A program made the position numbers and the translations under genes. The notes under the pieces are model-generated. The model saw only the letters and a program-made list of their open reading frames with translations. It did no database searches and was not told the origin of the DNA. From contig DASUYB010000075.1 in the NCBI GenBank assembly GCA_036377595.1, forward strand, positions 1 to 64,000: a DNA stretch of 64,000 nucleotides, in the 5' to 3' direction. This DNA comes from Longimicrobium sp. (GTDB lineage: Bacteria; Gemmatimonadota; Gemmatimonadetes; Longimicrobiales; Longimicrobiaceae). Below, piece after piece: positions 26,809 to 59,487 of the stretch. The first letter of the stretch is position 1. Every line of letters begins with the position of its first letter.

Positions 26809-26859
26809 GATGCGAGTGAACTCGCGGCTACGACGACACGCAGTCCGCCTTCGCGGACT
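26809..26859. repeat. REP-like element, TCGCGGCTAC...AGTCCGC family
   Basis: About 51 bp: ATGCGAGTGAACTCGCGGCTAC, then a short spacer and the hairpin AGTCCGCcttcGCGGACT. Related copies occur at 41295, 46186, 58118, 59292 (inverted pair) and 62891. Confidence 0.8.
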
Positions 26860-26954
26860 CCATCAGCGCAATTCGGGGCTGGATCGCCGAATCGTGCGCG
26901 AGTAGCTTGGTCGCATTCCTCCGCCGTTATCCCGAATCTCCATTCAATCCTCCG

Positions 26955-41294: not shown

Positions 41295-41345
41295 GATGCG
41301 ACTGAAGTCGCGGCTACAAAAACACACAGTCCGCCTTCGCGGACT
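41295..41345. repeat. REP-like element, TCGCGGCTAC...AGTCCGC family
   Basis: GATGCGACTGAAGTCGCGGC, a spacer, then the hairpin AGTCCGCcttcGCGGACT. It is a close copy of the elements at 26809 and 46186, between the carrier gene and the DUF4184 gene. Confidence 0.8.
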
Positions 41346-41484
41346 TCGATCACGCCGCACCCACGCGCCTCTGCGACATATATTCTCCAGCCATCCACAC
41401 CGATCGCGTAAGCCTGCGATGGCGTGACTTCTGCCTGACGCGAGGGCGCCGGACCGGCGCCCTTCTTCGTTCTCCGCCACGCAG

Positions 41485-44789: not shown

Positions 44790-45341
44790 ATGCCGCGAAT
44801 CGAGCCGCTGGAATACGAGCAGATGCCGCCGGACGCGCGCGCGGCGCACGACGAGCACCTGGAGGTCGCGCGCATCACCAACATGAAGCGCACGCTGCTG
44901 CACTCGGTGCCGGCGTTCGACGCGCTGATGACCTGGTACCGCCTGCGCGACACGGTGCGGCCGTTCCTGGGCGAGCGGCTGACCACCCTCTTCGCGCACG
45001 CGGTGTCGGCCGAGACGGACTGCCTGATCTGCTCGACCTTCTTCCGCCGCATCCTCGTCGACAGCGGCGAGAACCCCGATGCGCTGGAGATGGACGAGCG
45101 CGAGGCCGCCGTCGTCGCCTTCGGCCGCGCGCTGGCGCAGACGCCGCACCGCGTCCCCGACGCTCTTTATGCGCCCGTGGCGGCGTTTTTCGATGACGAG
45201 CAGATGGTGGCGCTGACGGCGTTCGGGGCGCTGATGGTGGCCACCAACGTGATCAACAACGTGCTGCAGGTGCCGCTGGACGACTATCTCCAGCCGTACC
45301 GGAAGCACCCCGCGGCGGAAGGGATCGGGGCGCATGGGTGA
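44790..45341 (+). CDS. Carboxymuconolactone decarboxylase/AhpD-like protein
   Basis: A 183-residue all-helical protein of the AhpD-like superfamily. The redox or proton-relay motif CLICSTFF (C-x2-C) lies in the central helix, preceded by the characteristic ERLTTLFAHAVSAETDC. AhpD members reduce peroxidase partners, while CMD members decarboxylate; the CxxC favours the former. Its last 8 nt overlap the next SDR gene, so the two are co-translated and probably act in one pathway. Confidence 0.82.
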   Translation: MPRIEPLEYEQMPPDARAAHDEHLEVARITNMKRTLLHSVPAFDALMTWYRLRDTVRPFLGERLTTLFAHAVSAETDCLICSTFFRRILVDSGENPDALEMDEREAAVVAFGRALAQTPHRVPDALYAPVAAFFDDEQMVALTAFGALMVATNVINNVLQVPLDDYLQPYRKHPAAEGIGAHG

Positions 45342-46137
45342 GTTCGGTGGGCGCGTGGCGTTCGTCACTGGCGCGGCGCACGGGCAGGGGCGCGCGGCCG
45401 CGCTGGCGCTGGCGAAGGAGGGCGCGAGCATCGCCGCGTTCGACGTGGCGCGGCCGCTGGCGTATCCCGGCTACGGGATGGGCACCGGCGAGGAGCTGGA
45501 CTCGCTCGTGCGCGAGTGCGAGGCCGCGGGGAGCAGCGCCGTCGCCTTCGCCGGCGACGTGCGCGACGATGGGGCCATCACCGCCGCGGTGGAGGGAACG
45601 CTCGAGCGCTTCGGGCGCATCGACATCCTGTTCAACAACGCGGGGATATGCGCGTACGGCCTGGCCCACGAGCTCTCCGAGGCCGAGTGGGACGCGATGC
45701 TCAACGTCAACCTCAAGGGGCCATGGATGGTCGCGCGCCGCATCATCCCCGTGATGATCGGGCAGAAGTCCGGCGTGATCATCAACAACTCGTCGGTGGC
45801 GGGATATCGGGGGATGAACCGGCTGAGCCACTACGCCGCCAGCAAGCACGGCCTGGTCGGGCTGACGAAGAGCTGGGCGATCGAGCTGGCGCCGCACGGC
45901 GTCCGCGTCGTCTCCATCCACCCCACCGGCGTCAACACGCCGATGAACGACGGCCTTGCCGAGCTGGAGGGGAAGACGGTCGAGGAGATCGCCGAGGCCA
46001 GCGCCGGCAACCTCCTCCCCGTCCCCTGGATCGAGCCCGAGGACGTGGCCGAGGCCGTCGTCTTCCTCGCCAGCGACCGCGCGCGCTTCGTCACCGGCGC
46101 GGGGCTGGTGGTGGATGCGGGGCTGCTCACGCGGTGA
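45334..46137 (+). CDS. Short-chain dehydrogenase/reductase
   Basis: The 267-residue SDR has TGAAHGQGRA as the cofactor glycine motif, NNAG, catalytic Ser in NNSSVAGYRG and YAASK (Tyr/Lys). Its opening (GRVAFVTGAAHGQGR) and the ELAPHGVRVVSIHPTGVNTPM block resemble the mycofactocin-coupled/carveol dehydrogenase-like SDRs, but no mycofactocin genes are seen, so ordinary NAD(P) use is equally possible. It overlaps the AhpD-like gene by 8 nt. Confidence 0.88.
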   Translation: MGEFGGRVAFVTGAAHGQGRAAALALAKEGASIAAFDVARPLAYPGYGMGTGEELDSLVRECEAAGSSAVAFAGDVRDDGAITAAVEGTLERFGRIDILFNNAGICAYGLAHELSEAEWDAMLNVNLKGPWMVARRIIPVMIGQKSGVIINNSSVAGYRGMNRLSHYAASKHGLVGLTKSWAIELAPHGVRVVSIHPTGVNTPMNDGLAELEGKTVEEIAEASAGNLLPVPWIEPEDVAEAVVFLASDRARFVTGAGLVVDAGLLTR

Positions 46138-46185
46138 GGTTCGCGGAGGGGTGATGCAGGTGCGTTGGTTGGGAGAGGCGGAACA

Positions 46186-46235
46186 ATGCGAGTGAACTCG
46201 CGGCTACAACGACACACAGTCCGCCTTCGCGGACT
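46186..46235. repeat. REP-like element, TCGCGGCTAC...AGTCCGC family
   Basis: ATGCGAGTGAACTCGCGGCT, then a spacer and AGTCCGCcttcGCGGACT. It lies 26 nt before the start of the truncated chagasin-like gene. Confidence 0.8.
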
Positions 46236-46260
46236 TCAACGGCTCATCCCTCCTGCGATC

Positions 46261-46416
46261 ATGCAACGTATCGGCTTCGTGGCTGGCTCGGTGGCACTCC
46301 TGGCGGCGTTCGGGTGCACGGCGCGCGAGTCCTTCAGCGACCCGTCGATGCCGATCGAGATGGCGCGCGGGGCGGAGTTCGACATCGCGCTGGAGTCGAA
46401 CCAGAGCACCGGCTAA
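46261..46416 (+). pseudogene. Truncated chagasin-like (I42) lipoprotein, copy 1
   Basis: The frame encodes a lipoprotein signal (GSVALLAAFGC, lipobox Cys) and the first third of an inhibitor I42/chagasin-like domain (MARGAEFDIALESNQSTG), then stops. It ends exactly at the conserved N-x-S/T-T/S-G loop, where the complete paralogue at 46863 reads HSTGYEW. The next gene's ATG is one base after the stop, so the missing C-terminal part was replaced by it. Confidence 0.75.
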
Positions 46417-46417
46417 G

Positions 46418-46798
46418 ATGGAATTCACGTTGTACGGCTTTGAGGTGTACACCTCGGAGGTTGACGACCGCTGCGTGGATTTCGTTGTGAGGCGTGACGG
46501 CGGACAGTTCTACGACGTTCAAGTGAAGTCTGTTCGAGGCTACAACTACATCTTCATCCCCAAAGAGAAGTTTCCAATCGCGCCGCACCGGTTGGTAGCC
46601 GTCGTGGTACTGCATCAGGACTCAGAGCCTGAACTGTACCTGATCCCGATCACGGCGTGGCTCGCACCGAACCAACTCCTCGTCAGCCGTGATTATGAGG
46701 GGTTGAAGAGCGAACCGGAGTGGGGGATCAACATCTCGCGGAAGAATCAGCCGCTGCTAGAGACCCATCGCTTCGAGCGCGTGATCGTGAGGCTTTGA
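46418..46798 (+). CDS. Small nuclease-fold protein (DUF4365-like)
   Basis: A 126-residue protein with a PD-(D/E)xK-like core: strand-rich start (FTLYGFEVYTSEVDDRC), then VDFVVRRDGGQFYDVQVKS, where Asp and the Q-V-K triad occupy nuclease-like positions, and later YLIPITAW and PEWGINIS. This resembles DUF4365-type proteins; enzymatic activity is unproven. GC content is lower than its neighbours. It starts one base after the broken inhibitor gene, so it looks like an insertion. No second domain or partner is adjacent. Confidence 0.6.
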   Translation: MEFTLYGFEVYTSEVDDRCVDFVVRRDGGQFYDVQVKSVRGYNYIFIPKEKFPIAPHRLVAVVVLHQDSEPELYLIPITAWLAPNQLLVSRDYEGLKSEPEWGINISRKNQPLLETHRFERVIVRL

Positions 46799-46862
46799 GT
46801 CTTCCTGTCCTAAAACTATGATGCTGCGCCACGATGGTTGATTTCCTACATCCTTCTCGATC

Positions 46863-47230
46863 ATGACCCGAATCCATCCCATCCTCCTGGCGGCTGTGCT
46901 CGCGCTGACCGCCGCGCGAGCTTCGACGATCCTGCGCAGCCGGTCGAGGTGCGCGCGGGGAGCGAGTTCACGCTTGCGCTGAAGGCGAACCACAGCACGG
47001 GCTACGAGTGGGTGCTGGCGGATTCGGCCGCGCTCGGCCGGCTGCGCCTAGTCTCGAAGGACTACACCATCCCGCGCCTAGACCGCGACCGCGACGGCGC
47101 CGGAGGCACCGAGCGCTGGGTCTTCCGTTCGGACGGTCCCGGTAACGGTGTGGTCGCCCTCGCCTACCTGCGCCCGGGAGAGACCACGCCGCCGGCCGAT
47201 TCGGCGCGCTTCCGCGTGACGGTGCGGTAG
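46863..47230 (+). pseudogene. Chagasin-like (I42) protein, frameshifted copy 2
   Basis: A signal peptide (HPILLAAVLALTAAR) opens at 46863 in one frame, but the inhibitor domain (VEVRAGSEFTLALKANHSTG, GGTERWVF, GVVALAYLRPG, ending FRVTV) continues in another; the two are joined near 46918, where copy 1 is in frame through TARESFSDPS. One base too many or too few would explain it. The domain has the I42 loops N-x-STGYEW and a C-terminal R-F-like strand, normally cysteine-protease inhibitory. A sequencing error must be excluded. Confidence 0.65.
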
Positions 47231-47362
47231 CCCGATCGTTTCATAAACGGTTGATTAGAAGCAGTCCGGAGCGGTTCCCCTGAACTGCAACAGGTGCTAT
47301 TCTCCGAGCGTCGCCGCCCACTCGGGGACGGCGCGAGAACGGATGCCACAGGGAGAGGCTCC

Positions 47363-47524
47363 ATGGAGAAGGTGAAGCTGAGCATGAGCGAGCTGGCGGT
47401 CGAGTCGTTCGAGATGGAGATCGAGCAGGCGCAGGGGACGGTGAACGCATTCGAGTTCGCGCCGACCGGGCGCACGCGCGACTGCCCCTGCATCGAGCTC
47501 ACCGGCCCCGCCTCGTGCGGGTGA
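47363..47524 (+). CDS. Orphan RiPP (pinensin-type lanthipeptide-like) precursor 1
   Basis: A 53-residue peptide with a leader containing ELAVESFEME and a GTV motif at residues 25-27, and a short C-terminal core with three cysteines (Cys41, Cys43, Cys52) plus Thr/Ser. The leader matches the second precursor at 53663 (ELSVTSF, RGTV). GGGAGAGG lies 5 nt before the ATG. No lanthionine synthetase or other maturation enzyme is in the window, so modification in trans is inferred. Confidence 0.7.
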   Translation: MEKVKLSMSELAVESFEMEIEQAQGTVNAFEFAPTGRTRDCPCIELTGPASCG

Positions 47525-47571
47525 GCGGCGGCGGCGTGGCGAGCTGACGCCCGCCGGCAGCGAGCGATGCG

Positions 47572-47596
47572 CAGGCCCGGCCAGTCGCCGGGCCTG
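47572..47596 (+). terminator. Terminator hairpin behind RiPP precursor 1
   Basis: CAGGCCCGG/CCGGGCCTG, a perfect 9-bp stem with a 7-nt loop, followed by TTCG. Confidence 0.65.
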
Positions 47597-47816
47597 TTCG
47601 CGTCTGATGCGCGTGGAGGATGTTTCCGAAGATTCCGTCGCGGAGGAGTCGGCAGCGGTGTGCTTCCAGCGGCGCGCCTTCTGCTGTATGGCGGCCCAAC
47701 CTTCATGCACCGGCGCCCGTCAGGGTAGCCCGTCTGGATATCTTTTGACCTGAACCGGGCGCAAACGCATGAATGGACCATCCTTCTGCGGACACCCATC
47801 ATCCGGGAGGCGATCC

Positions 47817-48665
47817 ATGGCACGCACGCGGCGCTCGAGCTCCAACCGTCCCAGCGGCACGGTCGTCCTCTCCGCCGGGCCGGCTCCGGGCGCGCCCGAC
47901 GGGAACGCATCTCCCCGCGAAGCGACCGAGTCTCCCGGCGAAGCGGCTGAATCTTCCCGCCAGGCGGTTGAATTGCTTCTCGCCGAGCTGGCGCCGGGTT
48001 CGCCGAGCGGAATCGGGCAGGCTTCCACCGCCATCCTCTTCCCCGAGGCGCCGCCACCGTGGCGGCTGGCGATCGGAACGCGGGTGCGATGGGCGACGCG
48101 TTCGGCGCGGCGGCTGCCGGCTGTGCTCCGGTTCACCGGGATCGCGCGCTCCGGCACGTACGCACGGCGGGCACGGAAGCGGGCCGCGCCGCCCGTCACC
48201 ACGCTCACGCTCCGCGACGAGAAGAAGGCCCACGTGCTGATCGCCGCCCACAACGCGGCGCGGGAGAGCATCGCCCGCTGGGAGGACCGCCTGTTCAGGG
48301 GCTCGCTGGCCTCGGCCGGCGCCATGCTGCTGGCCCCCGGATTCCTTCTCCAGAAGCCGGTGCCGGCGCGCGTCCATGGCGTGCTCGTGACCGCCATGCT
48401 CCTGTTCGGCGCGTTCGCGACCCTGTACCTGCTCCTGGCCGCGCGGGCGCGCGCCGAGCGCTGCACGGACCTGGCGCAGATCGAGGCTGCGCTGGGCTTC
48501 TCCGAGTCCGGCCGGTATCTCCGCGGGCGCAGGCTGGTGGGCTACCGGCCACGGCGGACGCGGGAGTGGGGCGCGCTTCCGCTCCTCGTGGGGCACAGCG
48601 TGGTCTGGCTGTTCGCCGTGTACGCCCTGCGTGCGTCCCTAGCCGCGTCCTTCCTCCCGCTCTGA
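47817..48665 (+). CDS. Membrane protein of unknown function
   Basis: I do not recognise this 282-residue protein. The first ~60 residues are Ser/Pro/Glu-rich and disordered with repeated 'SPGEA/SPREA' units. Three hydrophobic segments follow the middle charged part: ASAGAMLLAPGFLL, VHGVLVTAMLLFGAFATLYLLL and LLVGHSVVWLFAVYAL. A GGGAGG lies 7 nt before the ATG. The gene ends 39 nt before a hairpin. Confidence 0.65.
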   Translation: MARTRRSSSNRPSGTVVLSAGPAPGAPDGNASPREATESPGEAAESSRQAVELLLAELAPGSPSGIGQASTAILFPEAPPPWRLAIGTRVRWATRSARRLPAVLRFTGIARSGTYARRARKRAAPPVTTLTLRDEKKAHVLIAAHNAARESIARWEDRLFRGSLASAGAMLLAPGFLLQKPVPARVHGVLVTAMLLFGAFATLYLLLAARARAERCTDLAQIEAALGFSESGRYLRGRRLVGYRPRRTREWGALPLLVGHSVVWLFAVYALRASLAASFLPL

Positions 48666-48704
48666 CGCGCCCGTCCGCGGCTGGTTGCGTCGATCGAGAG
48701 TTCC

Positions 48705-48731
48705 GCCGACGGATGCCACGCGTCCGTCGGC
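48705..48731 (+). terminator. Hairpin terminator
   Basis: GCCGACGGA/TCCGTCGGC, a perfect 9-bp stem with a 9-nt loop, followed by GTTATTTCG. The downstream arm with its GTTAT tail (CGTCCGTCGGCGTTAT) recurs at 49345 before the mutase gene. Confidence 0.65.
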
Positions 48732-48744
48732 GTTATTTCGATCG

Positions 48745-48811
48745 CCGCCGCTCCGCTTGGGAACAGCGCGAGAACATGTACCACAGGGAGCTGTTTTGCT
48801 TCCACGGATGA
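48745..48811 (+). repeat. Decayed copy of the RiPP precursor leader region
   Basis: GCGCGAGAAC followed by ATGtaCCACAGGGAG resembles the 5' region of precursor 1 at 47333-47356 (GCGCGAGAAC, GATGCCACAGGGAGAGG). After it there is only a short peptide ending FCFHG-stop, so the coding part seems lost. It lies before the GNAT gene. Confidence 0.45.
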
Positions 48812-48859
48812 CGAACGCAGCGCTCGGCCCTGTGTTCGCCCTACGCGCAAGGAGAGCAC

Positions 48860-49315
48860 GTGACCGGGATTCTCTACCGCGAGGCGGGTCTGGTGGACGT
48901 GCCGCGGCTGGTCGGGCTTCCGCGTCGGTGCGAGGCTGGCGGCGACCCGCGGATGCTGGCGTACCTGGCCGGCGAGCATCATCCGCAGCAGGCGCTGCCC
49001 CTCCGCGTGCTGTGGATGGCCGAGGCGGAGGATGCGCCGGCCGGCTACATCGCCGGGCACCTGACGCGCCGGCTGGGATGCCAGGGCGAGCTGCAGTGGA
49101 TCTACGTCGTTCCCGATTACCGTCGCGCCGGCGTGGGGTCTAGACTGCTGGCGCTGCTGGCGGCCTGGTTCGTCGAGCACGGGGCCCGCCGCATCTGCGT
49201 GGACGTGGGCGACGATGCCGCGCGGCCGTTCTACCGGCGCCAGGGAGCGGTGGAGCTGAACCGCCACTGGATGGTGTGGGAGGACATCGGCGTCGTCCTC
49301 GGCAATTCGTCCTGA
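48860..49315 (+). CDS. GNAT family N-acetyltransferase
   Basis: The 151-residue protein has the acetyl-CoA binding motif A of GNAT enzymes: LQWIYVVPDYRRAGVGSRLL (Arg-x2-Gly-x-Gly), and the C-terminal GDDAARPFYRRQGAVE block. The acceptor is unknown. The GTG start has AAGGAGAG about 6 nt upstream. Confidence 0.85.
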   Translation: MTGILYREAGLVDVPRLVGLPRRCEAGGDPRMLAYLAGEHHPQQALPLRVLWMAEAEDAPAGYIAGHLTRRLGCQGELQWIYVVPDYRRAGVGSRLLALLAAWFVEHGARRICVDVGDDAARPFYRRQGAVELNRHWMVWEDIGVVLGNSS

Positions 49316-49415
49316 ACATCCCGGCGCGCTCGGATGCCGCGCGCGTCCGTCGGCGTTATGTTTGCCGCCCTGACGCAGTTCCGTACTTCGAGACTCTTGT
49401 ACTTTCGTACTGGCG

Positions 49416-59291: not shown

Positions 59292-59487
59292 GGGGCGAAT
59301 AAATTCGCTGCAACAACCACACGAAGTCCGCCTTCGCGGACTACAGGCTTCGGTGTGGCCGAGACGACGGTGCTCGCGACCGGCTTCCACGAAAGCTGGC
59401 TCCGCGCACCACAATCTCGTCGGCACGAAAGTCTGTAGTCCCCGCAGGGGGACTTCGTGTCGTTGTTGCTGCGAATTTATTCGCCCC
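59292..59487. repeat. Inverted pair of REP-like elements
   Basis: The arms GGGGCGAATAAATTCGC / its complement, continuing through GCAACAAC and CACGAAGTCC, form a 196-bp inverted element with about 90 bp of spacer. Each arm contains one copy of the AGTCCGC or AGTCCCC hairpin. The rest of the gap to 59699 shows no gene. Confidence 0.85.

Follow-up and report, generated by a model that had tools for sequence, protein, structure and literature searches.

Results

Gene content of the locus

The window, i.e. the whole stretch of 64,000 nucleotides of Longimicrobium sp. DNA analysed here, contains an intact short-chain dehydrogenase (SDR) gene at 45334..46137 on the forward strand (Pfam adh_short_C2, 6.8e-55), which serves as the left syntenic anchor. 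Three small genes follow on the same strand: the 5′ half of a chagasin-like (I42) lipoprotein gene, cut off after NQSTG (copy 1, 46261..46416), the 3′ part of a DUF4365-like PD-(D/E)XK nuclease gene (46418..46798), and an I42 domain with NHSTG, GAGG and RPGE stretches (copy 2, 46919..47230). A hydrophobic, leader-like stretch precedes copy 2 at 46863..46918, out of frame with the domain. The I42 family is one of protease inhibitors, with papain-type cysteine peptidases as the expected targets. For the I42 family, the motifs listed in PMC5014320 are NPTTG, GxGG and RPW, and the Pseudomonas chagasins described there carry a leader.

Copy 1 is the truncated ortholog of an intact gene

Copy 1 starts at ATG 46261 and encodes MQRIG...AFGCTARESFSDPSMPIEMARGAEFDIALESNQSTG, ending with the TAA at 46414-46416, directly 3′ of the codons for the STG loop. 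The product thus stops after NQSTG, and the GxGG and RP stretches are lacking; the domain is incomplete, with the first of the three motifs alone, and a Pfam scan of copy 1 gave no match. The relation to copy 2 was detected with the protein (E 3.7e-5, own-genome search) as well as with the DNA (74% over 127 nt, E 9.6e-13, within the window), and by these alignments the two copies are related beyond chance.

The SDR gene was found in 3 of the 10 genomes of the genus (E up to 1e-60), and a match over the Pfam cut-off for I42 in 5 of the 10; one of the three SDR-containing genomes, G003, has an intact I42 gene beside the SDR gene. This gene encodes 127 amino acids with a lipoprotein-like leader, and begins 30 nt after the SDR stop. 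Over the 28 codons compared, its nucleotide sequence is 87% identical to copy 1, with dS 0.33 and dN 0.10, values close to those of the SDR gene between the window and G003 (dS 0.28, dN 0.07). Judged by these distances, copy 1 is the ortholog of the SDR-adjacent I42 gene of G003. The original prediction had proposed a comparison with relatives holding intact I42 genes, and had named as evidence against itself a short copy 1 shared by relatives: G003 has the intact gene at the same place, and in this one clear ortholog it is full-length.

At the same site in the other congener with the SDR gene, G001, two other genes lie between SDR and I42. The syntenic I42 gene of G001 (L015 6903-7276) changes frame just after the STG loop, which represents either independent decay or an assembly error. 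The interval from the SDR gene to the methylmalonyl-CoA mutase gene (46138-49415 in the window, with its counterparts in L014 and L015) is a variable site, as its small genes differ between the three congeners.

A further piece of copy 1 was looked for in the draft genome of the window (208 contigs), with copy 2 as query and with the Pfam profile, and none was found, although the missing piece may be unassembled. Besides copy 2 itself and copy 1, the search with copy 2 returned a distinct I42 gene, on contig C142, two weak matches (E 0.26 and 0.63), and nothing else. The C142 gene has its leader and full domain in one frame and is apparently intact.

The nuclease gene is truncated at its 5′ end

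The nuclease ORF is open over 126 codons, and its GC content is 0.561, compared to 0.696 for the window. A single base (G) separates the TAA of copy 1 from its ATG at 46418 (TAAGATG), so that the first observation of the original prediction, a copy 1 stopping at the STG loop with a lower-GC ORF starting one base later, holds. What it did not contain is that the nuclease ORF is itself incomplete at its 5′ end. In a blastn comparison with the intact gene of G007, homology begins at 46415, three bases before the ATG, and not earlier. With the family profile, the window ORF matches from position 22 of 149, whereas the G007 protein matches positions 1-148. About 22 extra N-terminal residues were present before the conserved KM/KI pair in 8 of the 8 homologues inspected (L018-L022, L027, G007 and an Acinetobacter plasmid CDS; the Bacillus phage and Microvirga plasmid matches were left out of this inspection).

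To interpret the missing part, we used the full-length relatives. The family set comprised 10 loci (L018-L027), of which L023-L026 were left out of the alignments, as the query matched them partially and inside longer ORFs, as was L027, whose ORF ends early though its N-terminal stretch is present. In the five remaining proteins, W6, L9, Q13, G15, A18 and E19 of the missing stretch are invariant (in the Acinetobacter plasmid protein, A18 is replaced by Val). E19, D44, Q58 and K60 are invariant in all five, and we take them to be the catalytic positions. An AlphaFold2 model of the Desulfacinum protein, built with an alignment of 5 sequences, had a pLDDT of 87.7 and a pTM of 0.85, with a helix at 11-28 as first long element. 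The top structural match by Z was the homing endonuclease I-Ssp6803I (2ost_C, Z 12.0, 122 aligned residues, 3.0 Å), and Hjc resolvases were matched with a Z of about 11, Foldseek being part of this comparison. For the Sulfolobus Hjc (4tkd_C), the first aligned residues are 16 in the model and 9 in the chain, a start that would place E19 near Hjc residue 12, a catalytic Glu. Full-length relatives are therefore predicted by the model to adopt a PD-(D/E)XK fold, with a Glu on helix 1, and D and QxK on core strands. A sequence profile search of the PDB with the family profile returned nothing at E up to 1, and the five full-length relatives scanned all matched DUF4365 (PF14280) weakly, below the cut-off (best by E-value: L020, 17.2 bits for a cut-off of 24.3). 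The DUF4365-like label of the original prediction is acceptable in this sense, i.e. a weak family match and a predicted PD-(D/E)XK nuclease fold.

Compared to these relatives, the window ORF is missing E19 and the greater part of core helix 1, so that its PD-(D/E)XK core is incomplete. Moreover, the conserved Gly of DDRG/DDKG (G42, invariant in L018-L022) is a Cys, and Pfam and NCBIfam scans of the ORF gave no match. Because most of the predicted helix 11-28 is absent, the window ORF is most likely inactive. The TAAGATG arrangement and the open ORF would nevertheless allow translation of the fragment by reinitiation, and loss of function is therefore not proven. Between the window and G007, omega was 0.10 with a dS of 2.0, near saturation; most of the time of divergence may precede the truncation.

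The same compact arrangement, with TAA and ATG one base apart and all ORFs open, could also be read as a functional operon, in which copy 1 would give a short secreted peptide, the short nuclease would be translationally coupled to it, and copy 2 would be made from another start. The absence of the GxGG and RP stretches from copy 1 and of the helix-1 Glu from the nuclease speak against it, as does the fact that the only other nuclease relative among 61 genomes, that of G007, is full-length and located elsewhere. We hold such an operon to be highly improbable.

A single junction seems to truncate both genes

The junction between copy 1 and the nuclease gene lies at 46412..46417 (forward strand). 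On its left side, the sequence is of I42 type up to approximately 46414: in the DNA alignment of the I42 copies, it agrees with the relatives as far as GGCTA (46410-46414). On its right side, the nuclease relatives are followed from AAG (46415) in the DNA comparison, or from the Ala codon GCT (46412) with the profile. The two sides may thus overlap by as many as four bases (GCTA). These are compatible with microhomology, although they may be there by chance. The TAA of copy 1 is created at the join. A single illegitimate junction seems to have truncated both copy 1 and the nuclease gene.

The original prediction had read this arrangement as one clean insertion. Such an event would imply that the small nuclease gene entered the conserved STG-coding site as a whole, perhaps through homing; the position of the join exactly at a conserved motif, and the homing endonuclease found as top structural match of the full-length family, both fit with it. 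But after a clean insertion the cargo gene should be intact and be followed by the remainder of copy 1, and the reading is rejected on these grounds: 3′ of the nuclease ORF we found copy 2, with its own start, in place of that remainder, and the loss of the first ~22 codons of the nuclease already contradicts it. In addition, the intact G007 nuclease gene lies outside any I42 gene. We regard a clean insertion as very improbable, and the more specific proposal that the DUF4365-like family are free-standing homing-type nucleases targeting motifs like the I42 STG stretch, the window being a failed or decayed homing event, as extremely improbable. The original prediction of a locus broken after acquisition of a nuclease gene remains right in outline; it is the clean insertion that has to be abandoned.

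Copy 2 has probably lost leader sequence independently

Copy 2 carries a full domain (Pfam Inhibitor_I42, 3.8e-19, 69.2 bits for a cut-off of 27.2), in a frame that is open from 46814 to 47230. The NPTTG-like motif is NHSTG, with N, T and G kept as in G003, and GxGG is GAGG. In the RPW motif, RP is kept, and the Trp position of copy 2 is occupied by Gly, as it is in the intact gene of G003. The GC3 of the domain is 0.874. The leader, by comparison, starts at ATG 46863 in another frame than the domain and meets a stop at codon 40, so that the in-frame export signal seen in the intact relatives is missing. As the original prediction had it, the signal peptide and the domain of copy 2 are in different frames, and both I42 copies are broken as assembled.

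A frame break in a draft assembly of 208 contigs calls for caution, since an indel error near 46918, together with a misjoin at 46414, would turn the whole arrangement into an artefact. We measured the leader as the span from the ATG to the first aromatic codon of the mature start (FDDP in copy 2, FxDP/YxDP in general). Copy 2 has a span of 59 nt. The values are 72 nt for copy 1, 75 nt for G001, and 69-75 nt for G003, depending on which of three ATGs is used, so that copy 2 is shorter by 13, 16 and 10-16 nt, respectively. The leaders of copy 1, G003 and G001 all hold a Cys, whereas that of copy 2 is without the lipobox Cys. With a leader 13 nt shorter and no Cys, a one-base sequencing error would therefore not restore the form of the relatives, and a lone base does not explain the difference. 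Alignments of the AhpD-like, SDR and mutase genes of the window with their counterparts in G003 and G001 stay in a single frame and cover at least 99% of each gene. The SDR protein has full-length relatives of 90% identity in G003 and 87% in G001; the FkbM gene of the window had no relative in either genome. The three neighbouring genes with relatives thus show no frame breaks, which speaks against a generally error-ridden assembly, and the join is far from the ends of the contig (65,546 bases). We consider an artefact improbable for the locus as a whole; for copy 2 taken separately, an assembly-error frameshift added to a naturally lipobox-free leader could account for what is seen.

Copy 2 has 63% protein identity with the G003 protein. 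Over its first 28 codons dS was 0.80 and dN 0.36 relative to G003, and over the remaining 75 they were 0.44 and 0.26; compared to copy 1 (28 codons), dS was 0.52 and dN 0.45. By these estimates, copy 2 is more divergent from G003 than copy 1 is.

Possible traces of a one-sided import

Within the reading that we prefer, in which one illegitimate join truncated both genes, a particular case is that DNA imported from a related strain, with cargo upstream of its I42 gene, recombined through homology on its right side, from copy 2 onwards, and was attached on its left side by a short illegitimate join. One event would then account for both truncations, and G001 does have cargo at the corresponding place, between its SDR and I42 genes. 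On the left side of the join, G003 is the closer relative of the window (dS 0.20, versus 0.45 to G001, for the AhpD-like gene; 0.28 versus 0.42 for SDR), whereas on the right side the mutase gene is about equidistant (dS 0.30 for G003 and 0.32 for G001). Yet the shift in the mutase gene is small, and its dN favours G003 (0.044 versus 0.065). Copy 2 itself was examined as a possible chimera, by sliding identity and by dS in parts. Over the first 28 codons, G001 is slightly closer to it (nucleotide identity 0.70, versus 0.67 for G003; dN 0.27 versus 0.36), and over the rest G003 is closer (nucleotide identity 0.75, versus 0.66 for G001), but this comparison is based on 28 and then 59-75 codons, too few to be decisive. 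The donor arrangement was not found either. The change in distances from left to right is a hint, and we consider one-sided import possible, though rather doubtful.

Distribution of the nuclease family

Nuclease relatives were present in 2 of the 61 genomes, and in 2 of 298 taken from the phylum; both counts include the genome of the window. Because of this patchy distribution, the gene was likely acquired by transfer, which agrees with the original prediction that the low-GC gene was probably acquired. One of 50,697 phage records and 2 of 72,556 plasmid records contained a relative (E up to 1e-5), two counts that do not support a typical phage or plasmid home for the family.

In G007, the intact nuclease gene (L013 2339-2800) overlaps by 14 nt the end of an ORF resembling ribbon-helix-helix proteins (2110-2352, named by eye), and a transposase-like ORF is located nearby. 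Inspection by eye of the ORFs listed in the vicinity of L018-L022 and L027 showed no ribbon-helix-helix-like partner. A toxin-antitoxin reading of the nuclease was discarded as a rule for the family, with a partner seen in G007 and none around the six other relatives.

REP-like repeats and a small ORF in the vicinity

A REP-like repeat is found between the SDR gene and copy 1 (46186..46238, forward strand); it is absent at this place in G003. Its 53-nt core folds into two hairpins. With a 125-nt query, at least 48 matches were obtained in the same genome, self included (40 of 259 candidates scored). Other copies in the window are at 26810-26862, 41296-41347, 59295-59345 and 59434-59484, and, in a REPIN-like arrangement, eight among the matches listed form inverted pairs within 200 nt. 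The genome has two RAYT-like Y1_Tnp genes, of which one, at L050, is flanked by inverted copies of the repeat (1135-1184 and 1986-2027 of L050, 95-96% identity). The repeat and Y1_Tnp look like a REP/RAYT system in this lineage; among the matches listed in a literature search on RAYT/REPIN in Gemmatimonad, no title concerned this lineage.

Further downstream, a small ORF at 47363-47524 has a pinensin-like leader (NCBIfam leader_pinensin, E 0.043, 13.7 bits for a cut-off of 24) and a CPCIE...CG tail. A similar small ORF is present in the same stretch of G003 (L014 7538-7699, MEKVKLSLDELSVESFE...YCPCIEHTSPHECG). From its sequence, the window ORF is a possible RiPP precursor.

Discussion

We propose, with good confidence, that the locus consists of three damaged genes in a small cluster, derived from a G003-like ancestor by an illegitimate join and by a separate loss of leader sequence in copy 2. 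In this ancestor, the SDR gene would have been followed by a single intact I42 lipoprotein gene, the ortholog of copy 1. DNA carrying a horizontally spread, DUF4365-like nuclease gene, with a divergent I42 gene (copy 2) downstream, would then have come to lie beside the ancestral I42 gene. A single illegitimate join would have fused the two genes, at codon 51 of copy 1 and approximately codon 22 of the nuclease, leaving neither whole, either through a deletion between neighbours, or through an import in which one end alone was homologous. Independently, copy 2 would have lost leader sequence including the lipobox, and as the number of nucleotides lost is not divisible by three, the leader would have been put out of frame. 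The nuclease gene was found beside I42 in the window's genome only, and we infer the order of these events because no other genome with such a neighbourhood was found. Loss of function of the three genes is likewise probable rather than established, and the joining mechanism suggested by the short common sequence is a candidate one.

The feature is real, and looks like ordinary gene decay after faulty DNA joining. It illustrates that an apparently clean gene insertion can turn out to be a double truncation. It also suggests that a chagasin-like gene has decayed more than once at the same syntenic position, the gene being intact in G003 and broken, as assembled, in the window's genome and in G001. 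For annotation, neither a 'DUF4365 nuclease' nor 'two I42 inhibitors' should be counted here; beyond this, the locus has little significance.

How does this locus compare with known systems? Relative to the I42 family (PF09394; a bacterial example is Cip1 of Pseudomonas syringae), copy 2 is over the Pfam cut-off, and its NHSTG, GAGG and RPG stretches are like the motifs listed in PMC5014320, but it has no in-frame leader, and a Gly for the Trp of RPW; copy 1 differs in ending after the first motif. The leader described for Pseudomonas chagasins in the same source is a trait in common with the intact G003 relative.

Full-length relatives of the nuclease resemble the DUF4365 and PDDEXK_5-type nucleases (PF14280, PF11645), I-Ssp6803I and Hjc, by their predicted fold and their weak Pfam matches. 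The window ORF differs from all of these PD-(D/E)XK systems, being without most of helix 1 and without a Pfam match.

Finally, homology-facilitated illegitimate recombination is a known concept of illegitimate joining, and pseudogenes may form by such joining. The present locus departs from this scheme in that the types of event, deletion between neighbours or one-sided import, are indistinguishable here. It is alike in that the two genes are both truncated where they meet, at a short sequence that they may have in common.
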